Of a stretch of 21,428 nt of DNA, positions 3,518-12,584 are shown in pieces (position 1 is the first letter of the stretch; each line of letters begins with the position of its first letter). The translations under genes were made by a program, and so were the position numbers. The notes under the pieces are model-generated. The model ran no database searches. It was not told the DNA's origin and saw only the letters and a list, made by a program, of their open reading frames with translations. The stretch is from a virus, in the IMG/VR virus record IMGVR_UViG_3300048597_000112, positions 1 through 21,428 of that record; one strand, given 5' to 3'.

Positions 3518-4104
3518 AAGACCCGCTGGCCGGCTACCGCAAGGCAATCAACGAGCGCAAGGTGTCCGTCCTGCGCTACCCGGCATCAGAGCCCTGCCCC
3601 GTAGGTGAAGGGCAGTTCTACAAGCTCCAGTCCTGCGTTATCGAGATTGAACGCCCCCACCGCAAGATCGTCAAGGGCAAGCCCGCCGAATGGCACGTCA
3701 CGTTCATCCGCCACGAGCAGGACCGGGTGAACCTCCTGCGGCAGTCACCGCCGGTCCATGCCACGGGCGAACAGGACGCCAGCCTGAACATGACCCAGGC
3801 CGAACGGGCACGGCGCGACGGCAACTACACGTCCACGACCTACGCGGCCATGCCGCATGAGCCCGAGTCGGTCGGCCCTGACTGGCAGGACAAGGGCGCA
3901 GCCGAGCGCGAGCTGAAGCGGCAGGAGAGCAGGCGGGCGCTAAGGGCCGAACGGGACGCGCGTGACGCTGCCCGATTGGTCAAGGCCCAGGGCGCAAGGG
4001 TCATCCTCGAATCGGCCAAGATGGGCCGCGACATTACCCCGCTGCTGGCCGACATATTCGCGCGCCTCAAGCGCGAAGCCGACGAATTAGACAAAGCCGC
4101 TTGA
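3514..4104 (+). CDS. Hypothetical protein with helical C-terminal tail (196 aa)
   Basis: GTG 3514 overlaps the previous stop as GTGA. Residues 1-85 look like a mixed alpha/beta domain (KVSVLRYPASEPCPVGEGQF, WHVTFIRHEQDRVNLLRQSP). The pattern VGEGQFYKLQSCVIEIERPH suggests a small beta domain. Residues 130-196 are a long charged helix (ERELKRQESRRALRAERDAR) ending in GRDITPLLADIFARLKREAD. That last motif reappears in the small gene at 4283-4426. The TGA stop sits inside the candidate -35 of the downstream promoter. No function can be given. Confidence 0.7.
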   Translation: MKDPLAGYRKAINERKVSVLRYPASEPCPVGEGQFYKLQSCVIEIERPHRKIVKGKPAEWHVTFIRHEQDRVNLLRQSPPVHATGEQDASLNMTQAERARRDGNYTSTTYAAMPHEPESVGPDWQDKGAAERELKRQESRRALRAERDARDAARLVKAQGARVILESAKMGRDITPLLADIFARLKREADELDKAA

Positions 4105-4132
4105 ATTTTTCCGTCCGCTCAGAGCATATAAT
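4101..4132 (+). promoter_or_regulatory. Candidate promoter for the structured RNA
   Basis: A perfect -10 hexamer, TATAAT, lies at 4127-4132 in an AT-rich patch that stands out in this GC-rich genome. The best -35-like hexamer is TTGAAT at 4101-4106, but the 20-base spacer is longer than the ideal 17. A start about 7 bases after the -10 falls at 4139. It would lead straight into the hairpin-rich segment that ends in a strong terminator. Confidence 0.5.
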
Positions 4133-4138
4133 GTAATC

Positions 4139-4260
4139 ATGCCTCATTGCCCACCGCGAGATAGCGGTGGTCCGGGGTCACCCGTCGCGGACGGTTTGAC
4201 CATGTGATCCCGGAAACAGAATACCCGGCCCCATCAGCCCGCCCTTCGGCGGGTTTTCTT
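4139..4260 (+). ncRNA. Putative structured small RNA (or 5' leader), about 120 nt
   Basis: Between a TATAAT box and a rho-independent terminator lie three strong helices. (a) CCACCGC 4151-4157 pairs with GCGGTGG 4164-4170. (b) TCCGGGGTCA 4171-4180 pairs with TGATCCCGGA 4205-4214, 10 pairs with one G-U. (c) Inside it, CCGTC 4182-4186 pairs with GACGG 4190-4194. GGTCA 4176-4180 could instead pair with TGACC 4197-4201, so two folds compete. An unstructured linker then leads to the terminator. It could be a free-standing phage small RNA, or an attenuator leader for the gene at 4283. An ATG lies at the predicted transcription start and would encode only 22 aa. I know no named family that matches. 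Confidence 0.5.
4238..4260 (+). terminator. Rho-independent terminator
   Basis: CCCGCC at 4238-4243, loop CTTC, then GGCGGG at 4248-4253, followed by TTTTCTT at 4254-4260. The stem is perfect, the tetraloop compact and the T tract good. It would end transcripts from the upstream operon and from the candidate promoter at 4101-4132. Confidence 0.88.
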
Positions 4261-4282
4261 GTTCTAGATGCGGGAGGGTTTC

Positions 4283-4426
4283 ATGCGAAGTGCCGAGGAT
4301 GCCGTGCGGGCTTTCCGCAAGCAGGCCGACAATGTAATGCTCGCCTCAGCGCGAGCCGGTAGGGACATTCGCCCCCTTGTGGCCGACCTGCTGGCGATTT
4401 TCCACAAGGAGTCAGGGCGTGAGTAG
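4283..4426 (+). CDS. Small protein sharing a motif with the gene at 3514 (47 aa)
   Basis: ATG 4283 has GGGAGG at 4272-4277 with 5 bases between. ATG 4268 is in frame but has no binding site. The product starts MRSAEDAVRAFRKQADNV. Residues of about 21-43, ASARAGRDIRPLVADLLAIF, closely follow the tail of the 3514-4104 product, which has ESAKMGRDITPLLADIFARL. It therefore looks like a stand-alone copy of that C-terminal segment. It is the first gene after the terminator at 4238-4260, so its expression needs readthrough or a separate promoter. The stop region overlaps the next gene start at 4419. Confidence 0.6.
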   Translation: MRSAEDAVRAFRKQADNVMLASARAGRDIRPLVADLLAIFHKESGRE

Positions 4427-4778: not shown

Positions 4779-4830
4779 GAGGCGCCGCCGGTCTGCAGAG
4801 GTACCAAAGCCGGCGGCGCTTCACTTTTCT
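4779..4830 (+). terminator. Long GC hairpin with T-rich tail, terminator-like
   Basis: GAGGCGCCGCCGG at 4779-4791 pairs with CCGGCGGCGCTTC at 4810-4822: 13 pairs with one G-U. The 18-base loop contains the small palindromes TCTGCAGA and GGTACC. CTTTTCT at 4824-4830 follows. The stem is very stable but the loop is large, so it may work as a terminator or as a processing signal. It separates the gene ending at 4703 from the tRNA-like element that begins at 4833. Confidence 0.55.
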
Positions 4831-4832
4831 CC

Positions 4833-4910
4833 GGGGCCGATAGGCCGAGACAGACGGTAAAGCCGAAGCGCCCTGTCTGCACGTGGGTTCGACTCCCACC
4901 GGCTCCACCA
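4833..4910 (+). ncRNA. tRNA-like RNA resembling the tRNA-like domain of tmRNA, no anticodon arm
   Basis: GGGGCCG 4833-4839 pairs with CGGCTCC 4900-4906 as a 7-bp acceptor stem, followed by A73 and an encoded CCA (4908-4910). The third pair is G-U (G3-U70), the classic alanyl-tRNA synthetase signal, also found in tmRNA. The T arm is perfect: GTGGG 4883-4887, loop TTCGACT, CCCAC 4895-4899. No anticodon arm with a 7-base loop can be drawn in between. Instead CAGACGG 4851-4857 pairs with CTGTCTG 4873-4879 around a 15-base loop, and the D region has no stem. This is the layout of tmRNA (5' GGGGCYGAT, helix P2, T arm) but with the tag-coding body missing. Alternatives are a decayed tRNA, or an ssrA-derived attachment site. 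Confidence 0.6.
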
Positions 4911-4911
4911 C

Positions 4912-5053
4912 TTCACCAGCCGCTCCCTCCCGTGGCTACTGGTGAACACGCCGCCCGTGACGATGGCATCTACGGCCTAGCGAGGCGGCGAATCTTCCGA
5001 GCGTGGGCCTGCGCGGTCACGCTTCACACTTGAGAGTTGCGAGACGGGCTCAC
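4912..5053. other. Noncoding stretch with consecutive inverted repeats
   Basis: No credible gene is visible between 4911 and 5070. Three inverted repeats follow each other: TTCACCAG 4912-4919 with CTGGTGAA 4939-4946 (8 bp, perfect), CGCCGCC 4949-4955 with GGCGGCG 4984-4990 (7 bp, perfect), and GTGGGCC 5003-5009 with GGCTCAC 5047-5053 (7 bp, one G-U). They fill the space between the tRNA-like element and the three-way junction without overlapping each other. The whole span may be one long structured transcript. Short GC-rich arms arise easily by chance, so each alone is weak. Confidence 0.35.
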
Positions 5054-5070
5054 CACTAGGCGACTCCAAC

Positions 5071-5146
5071 GGCTAGGGCGCAGGGCCGCTCAGTCCGAGG
5101 GGCTGAGATGTGGGTCGTGGACCCACGCGGCCCTGCGCTTCTAGCC
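5071..5146. ncRNA. Three-way-junction fold (structured RNA or DNA element)
   Basis: Closing stem: GGCTAGGGCGCAGGGCCGC at 5071-5089 pairs with 5127-5146 over 19 pairs, with one G-U and a single bulged T at 5140. Inside are two hairpins: TCAGTCC 5090-5096, loop GAG, GGGCTGA 5100-5106 (7 pairs, one G-U); and GTGGGTC 5110-5116, loop GTG, GACCCAC 5120-5126 (7 perfect pairs). Only 3 bases join them. Almost every base in 76 is paired. No open frame is convincing here. The fold can be drawn on either strand, so transcription direction is not settled; the + strand fits its neighbours. Possible roles are a small RNA, a processing or packaging signal, or a replication site. Confidence 0.6.
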
Positions 5147-5154
5147 GCCCCACT

Positions 5155-5188
5155 TGCCCCGTCGCCCCATAGCTGACGGCGCGGGGCA
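5155..5188. repeat. Inverted repeat upstream of the gene at 5233
   Basis: TGCCCCG at 5155-5161 and CGGGGCA at 5182-5188 form 7 perfect pairs. The inner bases offer a competing helix of CCGTC 5159-5163 with GACGG 5175-5179. It lies 45 bases before the gene start, so it could belong to its 5' leader. There is no T tract, so it is not a terminator. Confidence 0.4.
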
Positions 5189-5232
5189 GGACTTACCGCA
5201 TCGCCCAACACACCCACCCACAAGGAGACACC

Positions 5233-5574
5233 ATGAGCAAGCCCAAATGGGGAACCCTGATAATGCTGCGCGGCAATCACACCTCGTTCGTGTCTGGCCG
5301 AACCGTATCCGAACTCGCAGACGAGATAGATGCGGTCGAGAACCCCCATGGCTTCTATTTCGTGCAAAGCAGCTACGTTGCGCCGGAAAACTGCAATCAC
5401 CTGGCCGTTCGCCCCGTAGATGTGGTTGCGCTCGTGGCCGTAGGCACACCGAACGAGCCCCAGGGTCACCCGACACGAGAGCAAGCCCACAATTCGACCG
5501 AGGCCGTCGCGTTGCTGAAGGACATGGTTGAGGGGGACATCGTTAGGCGACGGCCACAGAGGCTGCGCTACTAG
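5233..5574 (+). CDS. Conserved-looking hypothetical protein (113 aa)
   Basis: ATG 5233 follows AAGGAG at 5222-5227 with ideal spacing and is the first gene after the noncoding island. The product has an alpha/beta look: WGTLIMLRGNHTSFVSGRTV, a helix with ELADEIDAVEN, then GFYFVQSSYVAPENCNHLAV and a strand VVALVAVGTPNE. The last third is helical and basic (EAVALLKDMVEGDIVRRRPQ). I cannot name a family. Its position may link it to the RNA elements just upstream, but nothing in its sequence is a known RNA-binding motif. Confidence 0.7.
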   Translation: MSKPKWGTLIMLRGNHTSFVSGRTVSELADEIDAVENPHGFYFVQSSYVAPENCNHLAVRPVDVVALVAVGTPNEPQGHPTREQAHNSTEAVALLKDMVEGDIVRRRPQRLRY

Positions 5575-5873: not shown

Positions 5874-6154
5874 CCTACACACCGCGAAGGATAGGCAGGC
5901 CCGAGGGCTACCCCTTCACGGTGATGGACCCGAAAGACGCAACAGAGCGCAGGCGCTCACTCGCTGCCCTTGAACCCGAACCCCGTGCGGCCATGACCAT
6001 CAGCCTCCTGACGGGGCACACCCTGGACCAGACGCTATGGCAACTCAGGCAGCTCGAGATCCGGGGGCAAGTCAGGCACACCACGGACGAGGGCGGTGTC
6101 ATGCGGTGGGAGAGGCTGCCTGAGAACGGGTGGGAAGAGGACGCGCCGTTCTGA
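5870..6154 (+). CDS. Hypothetical protein, possible winged helix (94 aa)
   Basis: ATG 5870 overlaps the previous stop. After an N-terminal segment (TPRRIGRPEGYPFTVMDPKD) comes a helical region. The pattern MTISLLTGHTLDQTLWQLRQ is then followed by LEIRGQVRHTTDEGGVMRWE. The order helix, turn, helix and beta hairpin with a basic and charged wing resembles a winged helix-turn-helix DNA-binding domain. It could be a small regulator or a DNA-binding helper of the HNH protein encoded right after it. The stop overlaps the next ATG as TGATG. The fold is inferred from pattern only. Confidence 0.6.
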   Translation: MTYTPRRIGRPEGYPFTVMDPKDATERRRSLAALEPEPRAAMTISLLTGHTLDQTLWQLRQLEIRGQVRHTTDEGGVMRWERLPENGWEEDAPF

Positions 6155-6477
6155 TGCGAGCGCCGAAGGTCTGTAGCGACCCGCTCTGCCCCAACTCGCA
6201 GCCATGCCCCGACCACGAGCGCAAACCGTGGCAAGGCAGCAAGCGCAGGGAGCGGACGAAGCTCAGTGGGTACAAGCAGCAGAAGCGGGCGAAGTACGTC
6301 CTGCGGAGGCACGACACCATCTGCCATGTCTGCGGATACCCCGGCGCAACCGAGGCCGATCACGTCATCCCCCTGGCAGAGGGCGGGCCGGACACGCTGG
6401 GAAACCTGCGACCGATTCACCACGACTGCCACGTTCAGAAGACGGCAGAGGAGGCGGCGCGAGGTCGTCAACGGTGA
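6154..6477 (+). CDS. HNH endonuclease next to terminase (107 aa)
   Basis: ATG 6154 overlaps the previous stop. The HNH core is clear: CHVCG at 57-61, ADHVIPLAEGG with H70, GNLRPIHHDCH with N84 and H93. HNH proteins cut DNA using one metal ion held by these His and Asn residues. The N-terminal CSDPLCPNSQPCPDH (C7, C12, C18, H21) looks like an extra zinc site, which many HNH proteins of actinobacterial phages have. Phage HNH proteins next to terminase genes (HK97 gp74 is the studied case) work with terminase in cutting cos DNA. The gene order here, HNH then small and large terminase, fits that role. Confidence 0.9.
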   Translation: MRAPKVCSDPLCPNSQPCPDHERKPWQGSKRRERTKLSGYKQQKRAKYVLRRHDTICHVCGYPGATEADHVIPLAEGGPDTLGNLRPIHHDCHVQKTAEEAARGRQR

Positions 6478-6617
6478 CCGGGGAGGGGTACCCCCCCTTG
6501 ACTTTCACGCGCAGGACCGAAGGCGGCAGGCGATCGCAGTGTGTACGGGTTGGGAAAAACTTTCAGGGAGACACAACGTATGGCCGCAACGCTACGGCCT
6601 GACCAAAGGAGGGCGCG
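6478..6617. other. Gap between HNH and terminase genes, candidate cos region
   Basis: No strong gene fits in these 140 bases. A GTG frame from 6474 to 6602 (42 aa) is open but has no recognisable content. The gap holds a GC-rich palindrome, GGGGTACCCC at 6485-6494, inside a G run followed by a C run, and a short AT-rich patch near 6553-6562. The ribosome binding site for the next gene is AAGGAGG at 6606-6612. In cos phages with an HNH-terminase cluster, the cohesive-end site is usually in or near this interval. The exact cut cannot be read from sequence alone. Confidence 0.35.
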
Positions 6618-7031
6618 ATGCCCGGACCAGCACCAGCAGAAAACAGAAGGCGGCGCAATGAGCCCGCCCGTGGCGATTGGGTAGACCTCCCGCCGATTGA
6701 CAAGCCCTACCTGCCCGAGCTCCCCGACCGGGAAGAGGGCTGGAAGCAGACCACCCGCGACACCTGGGATCTGTGGCGGCAAGACCCTGCCACCTCGCAA
6801 TACACCCCCGGCGAGATCGCTTACGCGCTTGACACCATCCGCCTCTACGACGCCATGACCTCATCGGGCGCAAACGAGGTCCGGCTGCGCATGGACGGCC
6901 TCGGCCTCACGCCGAAGGGCAAGCGCGACCTGCGCTACCGCGTTTCAGCCGACGATCAGCCCGCAGCACCCGAGGTCAAGCGGCGTAACCGGACGCACGG
7001 CCGGCGTAGTCGCCTCAGCGTCGTGAAGTAA
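6618..7031 (+). CDS. Terminase small subunit
   Basis: ATG 6618 has AAGGAGG at 6606-6612. The N-terminal motif MPGPAPAENRRRRNEPARGD, followed by a Pro-rich stretch with LPELPDREEGWKQTTRDTWD, matches the usual opening of small terminase subunits in actinobacterial phages. There, a basic PLP-type arm is followed by a helical core. Residues 55-115 are helical (EIAYALDTIRLYDAMTSSGA, LRMDGLGLTPKGKRDLRYRV). The C-terminal tail is basic (KRRNRTHGRRSRLSV). The subunit recognises the packaging site and loads the large subunit. Its stop overlaps the large-subunit start as TAATG, which supports the call. The length of 137 aa is typical. Confidence 0.82.
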   Translation: MPGPAPAENRRRRNEPARGDWVDLPPIDKPYLPELPDREEGWKQTTRDTWDLWRQDPATSQYTPGEIAYALDTIRLYDAMTSSGANEVRLRMDGLGLTPKGKRDLRYRVSADDQPAAPEVKRRNRTHGRRSRLSVVK

Positions 7032-8731
7032 TGCCCCTGCCGACTTCCCCGCTGCCCGAGGTGGACTTTCCCACGCTCGGCTGGCAGGTGGCCGACTGGA
7101 TTGAGACCTTTCTCTGTCACGGCCCCGGCGACGTCGAGGGCGATGACTTCGAGGTGGACGACGAAATCGCCACCTTCCTTGCCTGGTGTTACCGCGTTCA
7201 CCCGCAGGGATCGCCCAACGAAGGCAGGCGGCAGGTTCAGCGGGCGGTCTTCTCAAGGCCAAAGGGCCGCGCCAAGTCCGAAATTGCCGGTGCCGTTGTC
7301 TGTGCTGAGGCTTTGGGCCCGGTTCGGTTTGACCATTGGGCCGAAGAGGGCGAAGTCTCCGAATGGGGCTATGAGTTTCAGCCGGGAGAGCCCGTCGGCG
7401 TGTCCGTACGGTCGCCGTACATCCGTTGCCTTGCGACCGAAGAGGATCAGTCCGGCAACACCTACGACAACGTGGTGGTGATGCTCACGCAGGGCGCAAT
7501 TGCCGACCACCTGGGCCTGAAGATGGGCAAAGAGGTCGGCATCACCCGCGTCTTCCTGCCCGATGGCGGCGAGATCACCCCGTCCACGTCCTCGAGCGCG
7601 GCAAAGGATGGCGGCAAGGAAACCTTTGCGGTGGCAGACGAGACACACCTGTACACCACCGACCAGCTCCGCAAGATGTATCGCACCGTGGCCCGCAACA
7701 CCGGCAAGCGGAAAGAAGGCGAGCCGTGGATGCTGGACACCACGACCGCATGGCAGCCGGGGGAGCGGTCAATCGCAGAGCAGGCGTCCGACAAGTACCA
7801 GGGCAAGCCCGTTGCCGAGGCGGTCGAGAAGCTCGGCGTCCTGTACGACCACCGGCAGGCACCGGAGCCTAAGAAGTTCGGCATGGACACCTCGCTCATC
7901 AAGGCAATGCGGGAGGGCTACGGCCCCGCCGCCGACTGGATGGACTTTCCCCGGATCGTGCGCATCATCCGCGACGCGGAAGACCCGGAGGCCGAGGCGT
8001 ACCGCTACTGGCTGAACCGCCCCCGCCTGGCCGGTACTCAATGGCTCGGGCCGGATGAAATCGCCGCAGCGGTCGAGGAGCGCGACATTGCCACCGGCAC
8101 GGCCATCACCCTCGGTATTGACGCCTCCGAATACGACGACCACACGGCGCTCATCGGCTGTACCGAGGACGGGCACCTGTTTCCGGTCGGCATCTGGGGC
8201 AGGCCGGAGCATTGGCCGAAAGAGGAGCCGTGGTCGGTGCCGATGAATGAGGTTGACGGCGCGGTCCGCTTCGCATTCGACCAGTTCAACGTGGTCAGGC
8301 TGTACGCCGATCCGCCGATTCTGAACAACTCCCTGCTGCCGCATTGGGCCAGGGACTTCGGTGAGGCGCGGGTCAAAGAGTTCTGGACGAACGCCGACAC
8401 AAAGATGGCGGTGTCCACGGGCGCACTTCGCACGGCAATCCGGCAAGGCGCGGCCACACTCGGCCCGCAGGAGATTCGCACCACTAACGAGCCACGAAAC
8501 GGCTCCCCGCTGTTCCTCTGGCACCTCGAAAACGCCCGCACCCGCAAGGTGAAGGTTCGGCTAGAGGACAAAGCCGAAGAGGCGTACATCGTGACCAAAG
8601 AGCGTCCCGGCTCCCAAAAGAAGATCGACTCCGCAGCCGCAGCGGTGCTCGCATTCAGGGCCAGAAACGACGCGCTCGCCACGGGCGAGTTCAAGCGTAA
8701 GAAGAAGGGCCGACTGGTCACCTTCTCATAA
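7031..8731 (+). CDS. terL: Terminase large subunit
   Basis: This 566-aa protein is the ATP-driven motor and nuclease of DNA packaging. The ATPase half has a Walker A-like motif, SRPKGRAKSE, at 75-84, in the R-x-x-G-x-x-KS form common in phage terminases. Walker B is TFAVADETHLY with D203-E204. The C-terminal RNase H-like nuclease half has LGIDASEYDDHTAL with D364, RLYADPP with D427, and KIDSAAAAVLAF with D533, which would bind metal. The start overlaps the small-subunit stop, and the portal gene follows after 14 bases. Length and motif order are normal, so the gene looks intact. Confidence 0.95.
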   Translation: MPLPTSPLPEVDFPTLGWQVADWIETFLCHGPGDVEGDDFEVDDEIATFLAWCYRVHPQGSPNEGRRQVQRAVFSRPKGRAKSEIAGAVVCAEALGPVRFDHWAEEGEVSEWGYEFQPGEPVGVSVRSPYIRCLATEEDQSGNTYDNVVVMLTQGAIADHLGLKMGKEVGITRVFLPDGGEITPSTSSSAAKDGGKETFAVADETHLYTTDQLRKMYRTVARNTGKRKEGEPWMLDTTTAWQPGERSIAEQASDKYQGKPVAEAVEKLGVLYDHRQAPEPKKFGMDTSLIKAMREGYGPAADWMDFPRIVRIIRDAEDPEAEAYRYWLNRPRLAGTQWLGPDEIAAAVEERDIATGTAITLGIDASEYDDHTALIGCTEDGHLFPVGIWGRPEHWPKEEPWSVPMNEVDGAVRFAFDQFNVVRLYADPPILNNSLLPHWARDFGEARVKEFWTNADTKMAVSTGALRTAIRQGAATLGPQEIRTTNEPRNGSPLFLWHLENARTRKVKVRLEDKAEEAYIVTKERPGSQKKIDSAAAAVLAFRARNDALATGEFKRKKKGRLVTFS

Positions 8732-8745
8732 GGAAAGGAGCGGGC

Positions 8746-10260
8746 ATGTCGCAACTCGTACCGCCTAGTCAGACCGTGCCCGTTCGCCTCCCGGTGAACT
8801 CAAACAAGCCCTACGGAACCCCGCTGTGGTGGGTCGAGAGCCTGACACACGAGATGGATGTCCGGCAGTCGCTCATCTACCTTTACGAGGACTACTTCGC
8901 CGGACGCCACAAGATGACCTTTGCGTCCTCGGCCTTCCGCGAGGCGTTCGGGCAGATGCTCGCCGCCGTTTCCGACAACTGGCTTCCGCTGGTGGTGAAT
9001 GCGTCGGTCGAAAGGCTGAAGCCGCAGGGCTTCCGCTTTGGCGACAGCCAGCGGGGCGACGAAGAGGCTTGGCGGATATGGCAGGACAACTCCCTGGACG
9101 CCGACGCGCCGCTCGGATTCACGGAGGCCGTCAAGCACGGTGAGTCTTACCTGCTGGTTTGGCCGGATTCGGTCGAGAGCAAGGGCGTCTTCGGGCGATT
9201 CTTCACGCGGCAGTCCGAGATCATGCCCCGGATCACCGTTGAGCACCCGTCGCAGATGATCGTGCGGCGCGAGGCCGGCGACCGCCGCCGCAGGGCCGCT
9301 GCGTTGAAGCGGTGGGAGGACGACGACGGCACGGTCTGCGCCACCCTCTACCTGCCCAACGAAATCCACTACTTCAAGGAAGGCAAGGGCGGATGGGAGG
9401 AGCGCCGCCCTGCCGCCGCAAACCGCTTGGGCATAGTTCCGGTCGTGCCGCTCGTGAACGAGCCGCAGATGCTCCCCTCGCGCCCCCCAGCGTCGCTCAC
9501 GGGCCTCCCCCACAGCGTCAATCAGGGCGCGTACGTCGGTTTGGGCCGATCCGACCAGGCGGACGTAATCTCGACCGTTGACCAGATCAACAAGCTGCTT
9601 TGCGACATGCTGGTCGCCTCCGAGGTGGCCGCGTTCAAGCAGCGGTGGGCAACCGGGCTCGAGATCCCCGAGGACGATGACGGGCAGCCCATCCAGCCGT
9701 TCAAGGCGGCGGTTGACCGCGTGTGGATGTCCGACGCGGCAGACGCCAAGTTCGGTGAGTTCAGCGCGACGGACCTAAGTAACTACACGGGCGCGGTAGA
9801 GCAGCGCATTCAGTCACTCGCGGCCCGGACTCGAACCCCGCCGCACTACCTGCTTGGCAGCATCGTCAACGCATCCGGCGACGCGCTGAAGGCCGCTGAG
9901 GCCGGACTGGCGTCAAAGGTCAACGGCAAGAAAATGGCCTTCGGAGAGGCGATAGAGGAGGCGATCCGCCTTGCCTTCGCATGGAAGGGTGACGAGCGCG
10001 CCAACGATCTGTCCGCCGAGGTGGATTGGGCACCGTCCGAAACCCGCTCCGAGTCGGAGTACGTCGATTCGCTTGTCAAGAAAATGGCGATTGGCGTCCC
10101 GAAGGAGCAACTTTGGGCGGACGCCGGCTACTCGCCGCAGCAGATCAGCCGATTCAAGGCGATGCTGCTCGAAGAGGGCGTCCGAGACGACATCTTCGGC
10201 CCGGTCGCGCCTCCGGTAGACGACCAGGAGCCCGAGCCGGATGGCGTCGAGGCTGGCTGA
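8746..10260 (+). CDS. Portal protein (SPP1 gp6-like)
   Basis: ATG 8746 follows AAGGAAAGGAG at 8731-8741. The 504-aa product has the layout of SPP1 gp6-type portals, which form the ring at one head vertex through which DNA passes. It has an N-terminal helix-rich wing (QSLIYLYEDYFAGRHKMTFA), a mixed region with DNWLPLVVNASVERLKPQGF, and the conserved middle (VPLVNEPQMLPSRPPASLTG, then VISTVDQINKLLCDMLVASE). The stem and clip part follows (SLAARTRTPPHYLLGSIVNA and SGDALKAAEAGLASKVNGKK). The acidic tail DDQEPEPDGVEAG is common. It sits between terminase and the MuF gene, as expected, and its last 20 bases overlap the next gene. Confidence 0.92.
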   Translation: MSQLVPPSQTVPVRLPVNSNKPYGTPLWWVESLTHEMDVRQSLIYLYEDYFAGRHKMTFASSAFREAFGQMLAAVSDNWLPLVVNASVERLKPQGFRFGDSQRGDEEAWRIWQDNSLDADAPLGFTEAVKHGESYLLVWPDSVESKGVFGRFFTRQSEIMPRITVEHPSQMIVRREAGDRRRRAAALKRWEDDDGTVCATLYLPNEIHYFKEGKGGWEERRPAAANRLGIVPVVPLVNEPQMLPSRPPASLTGLPHSVNQGAYVGLGRSDQADVISTVDQINKLLCDMLVASEVAAFKQRWATGLEIPEDDDGQPIQPFKAAVDRVWMSDAADAKFGEFSATDLSNYTGAVEQRIQSLAARTRTPPHYLLGSIVNASGDALKAAEAGLASKVNGKKMAFGEAIEEAIRLAFAWKGDERANDLSAEVDWAPSETRSESEYVDSLVKKMAIGVPKEQLWADAGYSPQQISRFKAMLLEEGVRDDIFGPVAPPVDDQEPEPDGVEAG

Positions 10261-11600: not shown

Positions 11601-12584
11601 ATGGCCGGAATTACCGGGCAGGGCACCACTTTCAACCTGCCGAACTACACGGGTGAGCTGTTCAGCGTCACCCCCCAGGACACCCCCCTGCTTTCCGCTA
11701 TCGGCGGACTGACCGGCGGCGAGAGCGTCAGCTCTACCGTTTTCAGTTGGCAGACCTACGACCTCCGCGACGCGGCTGACGACCGGCAGCGGTTGGAAGG
11801 TGCGAACGCGCCGACCGCCGAGTCCAGGGTCCGCGCCAACGTCCGCAACGTGCTTGAGATCCATCAGGAAGCACTCGAGGTCTCGTACACGAAGCAGGCA
11901 GCCATCGGCCAGATCGCGGCCAACGGTTCCAGCCACCCGTACGGCGAAGCCGGCACCGGCACGAACCCGGTCACGAACGAGGTTGACTGGCAGGTCCGTC
12001 AGCACCTCGTGCAGATCGCCCGCGACGTGGAAAAGTCGTTCATCACCGGCACCTTCCAGGAGCCCGCGAACAACTCGACCGCCCGCAAGACCCGTGGCCT
12101 GATCGACGCCATCGACACGAACCTCGTCAATGCGGGTGACACCCCGCTGACGAAGACCGACGTGCTCGACGCCATGCAGGAGGCGTACGACAACGGCGGC
12201 CTGATGGAGGACGAGACCCGCACCATCGTGGTCGGCTCGACCCAGAAGCGCGCTCTGACCGAGCAGTTCATCAACGCGACGGACGGCTACAGGTTCGAGA
12301 CCCGCAACATCGCCGGCGTCAACGTTCAGAGCATCGAGACCGACTTCGGTCGCCTCAATGTCATGCTGAACCGCCACGTCCCGAGCGACGTTGCCCTGAT
12401 CCTCTCGCTGGAGGATCTGGCCCCGTGCTTCCTCGAGGTGCCCGACAAGGGTCACTTCTTCGTGGAGCCCATCGCCAAGACCGGAGCTGCTGACAAGTTC
12501 CAGATCTACGGCGAGATTGGCCTGAAGTACGGCAACGAGAAGAAGCACGCCTGCATCTACAACCTCGGCGGCTACTCCTCGTAA
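11601..12584 (+). CDS. Major capsid protein (SU10 / DUF5309-like)
   Basis: ATG 11601 follows a near-perfect AAAGGAGG at 11587-11594, fitting very high expression. The 327-aa product starts MAGITGQGTTFNLPNYTGEL and continues FSVTPQDTPLLSAIGG, the opening I know from the SU10-type major capsid family. These have the HK97 fold. Other family-like segments are LEIHQEALEVSYTKQAAIGQ, the helix WQVRQHLVQIARDVEKSFIT, and the C-terminal IYGEIGLKYGNEKKHACIYN. There is no long N-terminal delta domain, which agrees with a separate scaffold gene. A stable hairpin follows the stop. Confidence 0.92.
   Translation: MAGITGQGTTFNLPNYTGELFSVTPQDTPLLSAIGGLTGGESVSSTVFSWQTYDLRDAADDRQRLEGANAPTAESRVRANVRNVLEIHQEALEVSYTKQAAIGQIAANGSSHPYGEAGTGTNPVTNEVDWQVRQHLVQIARDVEKSFITGTFQEPANNSTARKTRGLIDAIDTNLVNAGDTPLTKTDVLDAMQEAYDNGGLMEDETRTIVVGSTQKRALTEQFINATDGYRFETRNIAGVNVQSIETDFGRLNVMLNRHVPSDVALILSLEDLAPCFLEVPDKGHFFVEPIAKTGAADKFQIYGEIGLKYGNEKKHACIYNLGGYSS

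Follow-up and report, generated by a model that had tools for sequence, protein, structure and literature searches.

The late promoter pR′ of phage lambda gives rise to a terminated leader (6S RNA, 194 nucleotides (nt)) at the terminator tR′, and the genes beyond are reached only by read-through. The put antitermination RNA of phage HK022 consists of two adjacent stem-loops, about 65 nt in all, near a promoter. In type III toxin-antitoxin systems of the ToxIN-like kind, a promoter, an RNA and a terminator are followed by a downstream gene. Antitermination by Q in lambda has been described (PMC7171158). In the mycobacteriophages L5 and D29, the region from Pleft to the first gene yields abundant and stable non-coding RNA, ~90% of transcripts stopping short of the genes (PMC5712189). 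Here we describe a stretch of an uncultured virus in which a TATAAT box, a predicted folded RNA and an intrinsic terminator follow one another on the plus strand between two genes, P0001 and P0002. The window analysed is the whole IMG/VR record IMGVR_UViG_3300048597_000112 (21,428 bases), which is probably only part of a genome. We read the stretch, tentatively and with a little less than even confidence, as a terminated leader: a short transcription unit that gates the operon behind it, with the short RNA as its main product.

Comparison with Described Systems

The layout resembles that of lambda pR′/tR′ in that a promoter, a short leader and an intrinsic terminator precede late genes on the same strand. 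The leader here would nevertheless be ~120 nt rather than 194 nt and has no sequence relation to the lambda RNA, and neither a Q-like protein nor a Q-binding site was identified, Q homologues not having been sought systematically. As with the Pleft RNA of L5 and D29, promoter and next gene would be separated by a non-coding RNA in which most transcripts end, and the phage described here is probably actinobacterial too; in contrast, the stretch is without similarity to any phage record.

The order of elements is also that of a type III toxin-antitoxin locus, but P0002 is a 47-amino-acid (aa) paralogue of P0001 and not a ToxN endoribonuclease. The tandem RNA repeats that characterize such loci were not seen on reading 4139-4260 by eye, no repeat program having been run. 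The two stem-loops termed P2 and P3 below recall HK022 put, since they are likewise adjacent, total about 65 nt and lie near the promoter. No sequence relation to put is known, and bypass of the terminator by P2+P3 is only putative. That P2/P3 (4151-4214) act in cis on RNA polymerase to pass the terminator, as a put-like antitermination RNA for the late operon of an actinobacterial phage, is highly improbable.

Candidate Promoter, Terminator and Coding Status

The perfect TATAAT claimed by an earlier note on this DNA is present at 4127-4132 (plus strand) and is the sole copy on either strand of the window, against 0.47 expected by chance. A relaxed scan for −10 boxes (at least five of six matches, with A2 and T6 required) adds one further box on the plus strand, at 5259, within the gene at 5233. 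The rho-independent terminator is also confirmed: an 8-base-pair (bp) hairpin at 4236-4255, with the loop CTTC closed by C-G, is followed by a T-rich tail at 4256-4265, and by strict criteria it is the only strong terminator on either strand, about 100 nt from the TATAAT. A TATAAT followed by a strong terminator 60-250 nt away arises in 0.25% of dinucleotide-shuffled windows, a figure that was calculated after the feature had been seen and serves as a guide only.

The gap between the genes (4105-4282) does not show the variation of GC with codon position that its neighbours have. Codons following the ATG at 4139 score like shuffled sequence, while P0001, P0002, P0003 and the other neighbours stand clearly above their shuffles; codon usage thus bears out the statement that no convincing gene occupies the stretch. 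Because the spacing of TATAAT and terminator is rare in shuffled sequence and the gap appears non-coding, a unit of promoter, ~120-nt RNA and terminator is a credible model. As predicted features, the promoter and terminator are its own and the unit is intergenic, as in an independent small RNA gene. The candidate phage small RNA of the earlier note therefore survives in part: anatomy and chance controls back a short independent transcription unit, while its identity as a phage small RNA is only possible.

The ATG at 4139, which had been overlooked, lies exactly at the predicted +1 and opens a leaderless frame of 22 codons (MPHCPPRDSGGPGSPVADGLTM, 4139-4207, plus strand). TATAAT-N5-7-RTG is expected 0.019 times per strand, and the window has TATAAT-N6-ATG. 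Leaderless ATG and GTG starts function in mycobacteria, where many short ones are known (PMC4633059), and a similar −10-N6-ATG precedes an 84-codon frame ~840 nt upstream of the HNH gene in the related contig L042. The frame might accordingly encode a leader peptide whose translation would control either the folding of the RNA or the genes downstream. This we regard as very unlikely: codon usage in the frame is like that of shuffled sequence, the terminator forms whichever part of the frame is covered, and the leaderless precedent concerns a host group that is only probable for this phage. To judge from its codons, the 22-codon frame is probably not a real gene.

Fold of the Predicted RNA

The predicted RNA (4139-4260, ~120 nt, both ends predicted) has a minimum free energy of −56 kcal/mol (z −3.7); the centroid structure is the same as the minimum-energy one, and most pairs have probabilities above 0.9. 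Stem-loop P2 (4151-4170) has 7 bp and the loop GAGATA, with pair probabilities of 0.97-1.0. It stacks straight onto P3 (4171-4214), whose 11 bp (4171-4181/4204-4214) have probabilities of 0.86-1.0 and enclose a nested helix, P4 (4182-4186/4190-4194, 0.92-0.93). P3 is the 10-pair helix 4171-4180/4205-4214 described previously, which indeed forms, with one G-U pair, and extends to 11 pairs. Taken together, P2+P3 reach −38.3 kcal/mol (z −4.4). A sliding scan with 120-nt segments finds a handful of coding stretches that are as stable or more so relative to shuffles; because some coding stretches reach similar z, the stability of the fold is suggestive support and not decisive.

It had also been proposed that competing pairings make the stretch a switch or attenuator for the gene at 4283. 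Of these pairings, 4176-4180/4197-4201 (5 bp) does form, but only in RNA ending at ~4205-4210, and it is replaced once position 4215 has been made. Such competition in truncated transcripts is what favours a conditional, riboswitch-like attenuator. The full-length RNA has one dominant fold, however, and the terminator stem, which has no sequence in common with the competing helices, folds in every partial or masked RNA tested, whichever upstream part is hidden. No antiterminator pairing was found among the partial and masked folds, so that mutually exclusive terminator and antiterminator folds, the mark of an attenuator or riboswitch, are not seen here. The Rfam 15 covariance-model search of 4101-4260, which the earlier note had suggested, yielded no family match, whether at the gathering score or with E as high as 5. 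Because the terminator forms regardless and no antiterminator was found, the switch proposal fails, and we give it next to no credence.

Downstream Genes and Proposed Gating

P0001 (3514-4104, plus strand, 196 aa, unknown function) is coding by codon usage and stops 22 nt before the −10 box. P0002 (4283-4426, plus strand, 47 aa) is a paralogue of its C-terminus and is also coding by codon usage; family searches gave no match for it. The local score between the two, 95, lies above the maximum of 2000 shuffles (55; mean 28), and P0002 is on this ground taken to be a real gene. P0002 is 43% identical to that C-terminus (3946-4101 and 4283-4423, plus strand), and the RNA unit lies between the copies of a partial gene duplication. 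P0003 (4419-4703, plus strand, 94 aa) overlaps P0002 and is coding by codon usage, with no family match.

The Shine-Dalgarno sequence of P0002, GGGAGGG (4272-4278, plus strand), is placed 4 nt before the ATG at 4283 and starts 16 nt past the terminator hairpin and 6 nt past the T-rich tail. This leaves no room for a further promoter, so that P0002 and P0003 must be reached by transcription across the terminator, begun either here or further upstream. Since no promoter fits between terminator and ribosome-binding site, a simple gate on the gene at 4283, one that does not switch, would fit the arrangement of the sequence.

In the proposed mechanism, host RNA polymerase would start at ~4139 from the TATAAT box, and the transcript, with its two stacked stem-loops, would end at the terminator at ~4256-4265 to leave a folded RNA of ~120 nt. 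P0002, P0003 and perhaps the operon toward HNH-TerS-TerL would be transcribed across the terminator by read-through alone. The unit would thereby keep downstream expression low unless polymerase were allowed past, presumably by an antitermination factor. On this model, the stretch probably does yield a short transcript and so holds back the genes that follow.

The packaging and structural genes agree with such a terminated leader, as every one that could be assigned lies downstream of the RNA unit and on the plus strand. These include an HNH endonuclease (6154-6477) and TerS (6618-7031), both assigned with Pfam, and TerL (7031-8731), the portal (8746-10260) and the major head protein (11601-12584), assigned with PHROGs. 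The RNA stretch was also considered as a cos site and set aside, the likely cos lying at ~6480-6600 in the gap between HNH and TerS (judged by eye from its resemblance to the related contigs L003 and L004).

A different role for the same RNA is that of a stand-alone, trans-acting phage small RNA, in which the C-rich linker (4215-4235) or the loops pair with phage or host messages. The order of promoter, structured RNA and terminator and the size of 120 nt would suit this, and actinophages do make abundant non-coding RNAs (PMC5712189). Pairing of the linker with G-rich ribosome-binding sites is feasible, the strongest partner being the site of P0001 at 3514 (−20.6 kcal/mol), followed by that of P0002 (−17.4). 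The pairing energies form a continuum, however (−20.6, −17.4, −17.2, −17.2, −16.6), from which no target stands out, and the homologue searches found no conservation; we consider a trans-acting role unlikely. In read-through RNA, the single-stranded part of the linker (4219-4235, plus strand) is predicted to pair with 4267-4282 and so to bury the ribosome-binding site of P0002, a weak effect that 6% of shuffled linkers equal.

Evidence Against a Terminated Leader

Several observations weigh against the terminated leader. The best available −35 element is poor: the candidate TTGAAT (4101-4106, plus strand) is weak and has a 20-nt spacer, a poor fit to the sigma-70 consensus spacing. A strict sigma-70 scan of the window reported no promoter, and such scans are blind to phage-encoded promoters unlike sigma-70. 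No antiterminator, whether protein or pairing, was identified, the protein side having had no systematic search for Q homologues. Searches of the phage and plasmid collections, of 396 actinobacterial genomes and, with one exact 18-nt pattern, of IMG/VR recovered no homologue of the RNA, so that covariation lends the fold no support. The relatives that reach the region (L003, L004 and L007) have no comparable terminator, and the HNH gene, adjacent in other loci, is 1.9 kb downstream here.

The main sober rival is a plain gene boundary, at which the terminator ends the P0001 operon, the TATAAT arose by chance or acts as a weak promoter within the operon, and the stems are a by-product of GC-rich sequence. 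The expected 0.47 TATAAT per window and the poor −35 speak for it, as do the similar folding z of some coding stretches and the position of the terminator directly after the P0001 operon. It has to contend with the rarity of a TATAAT and a terminator at such spacing, with the z of P2+P3, and with a gap of 178 nt in a region where most neighbouring genes abut or overlap. On balance we hold a plain boundary to be rather unlikely. The RNA unit is at present a prediction from a single genome, with no conservation found. If it is in fact transcribed, it would offer a compact candidate for restraint of a gene block by a terminated leader in phages of little-studied actinobacteria, or else a new phage small RNA.

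Host and Related Loci

TerL has relatives in phages of Mycobacterium, Gordonia, Streptomyces and Arthrobacter, and its relatives in genomes come almost entirely from actinobacteria; one segment, in a metagenome-assembled genome of Solirubrobacteraceae, is 55% identical. Because the TerL relatives are mostly from actinophages or actinobacteria, the host is probably an actinobacterium.

In the 396 actinobacterial genomes, the RNA gave just short matches of 22-39 nt, scattered across different parts of the query, and loci reached through TerL and HNH showed no similarity to it. Searches with P0001, P0003, the gene at 5233 and the C-terminal pair of P0001 and P0002 yielded no relatives; a distant homologue of P0001 in L004 (42% over 78 aa) was reached via the TerL search. 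In the 600 nt ahead of HNH or TerL, 4 of 113 related loci carry a strong hairpin preceded by a −10-like box, compared with 1 of 878 control stretches (Fisher p 0.0007), which speaks for the terminated leader; most of the control DNA is coding, however, and part of the excess may be a difference between intergenic and coding sequence. Terminators are only modestly denser upstream of HNH/TerL (0.053 against 0.021 per kb, from 9 and 12 hits).

Among single loci, L050 carries a TATAAT, ~80 nt and a strong terminator at ~4840-4950, directly upstream of HNH, matching the order found in the window. L044, L046, L047 and L048 have a common non-coding block, GGTGCTCCCCTC..CGGGGAGCATACC...GTCAAGGACTC, ~100 nt before HNH, which is unlike the window sequence. 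The sequence TCCGTCCG, which in the window as well as in L003 and L004 immediately follows a stop codon, was rejected as a conserved element, as the window's share is equalled by 25% and 41% of shuffles. The similarity between L003 and L004 is itself significant (0.4% of shuffles), and a wider pattern matched those two contigs only.

Nearby Structures

Further structures lie in the 530-nt non-coding gap behind P0003 (4704-5232). An almost perfectly paired, T-shaped (three-way) inverted repeat of 78 nt at 5070-5147 (plus strand) is the strongest fold among those tested (−62.3 kcal/mol, z −8.7) and could act as RNA or as a DNA cruciform; 5060-5232 gave no match in the phage collection. We also note a GC-rich hairpin at 4781-4831 (plus strand), with a stem of 11-12 bp followed by TTCACTTTTCT, a possible second, long-loop terminator just before a tRNA-like element.

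This element, at 4833-4910 (plus strand), resembles tRNA-Ala or tmRNA, with a 7-bp acceptor that contains G3-U70, a T arm and an encoded CCA; it has a long middle stem and no D arm. It scores 47.9 bits with the Rfam tmRNA model (cut-off 47), and ARAGORN finds nothing. It may be an attachment site, a decayed gene or a tag-less tmRNA mimic, and its 3′-terminal 32 nt show an 88% match to the 3′ end of the tmRNA in the L082-bearing genome (Patulibacter).
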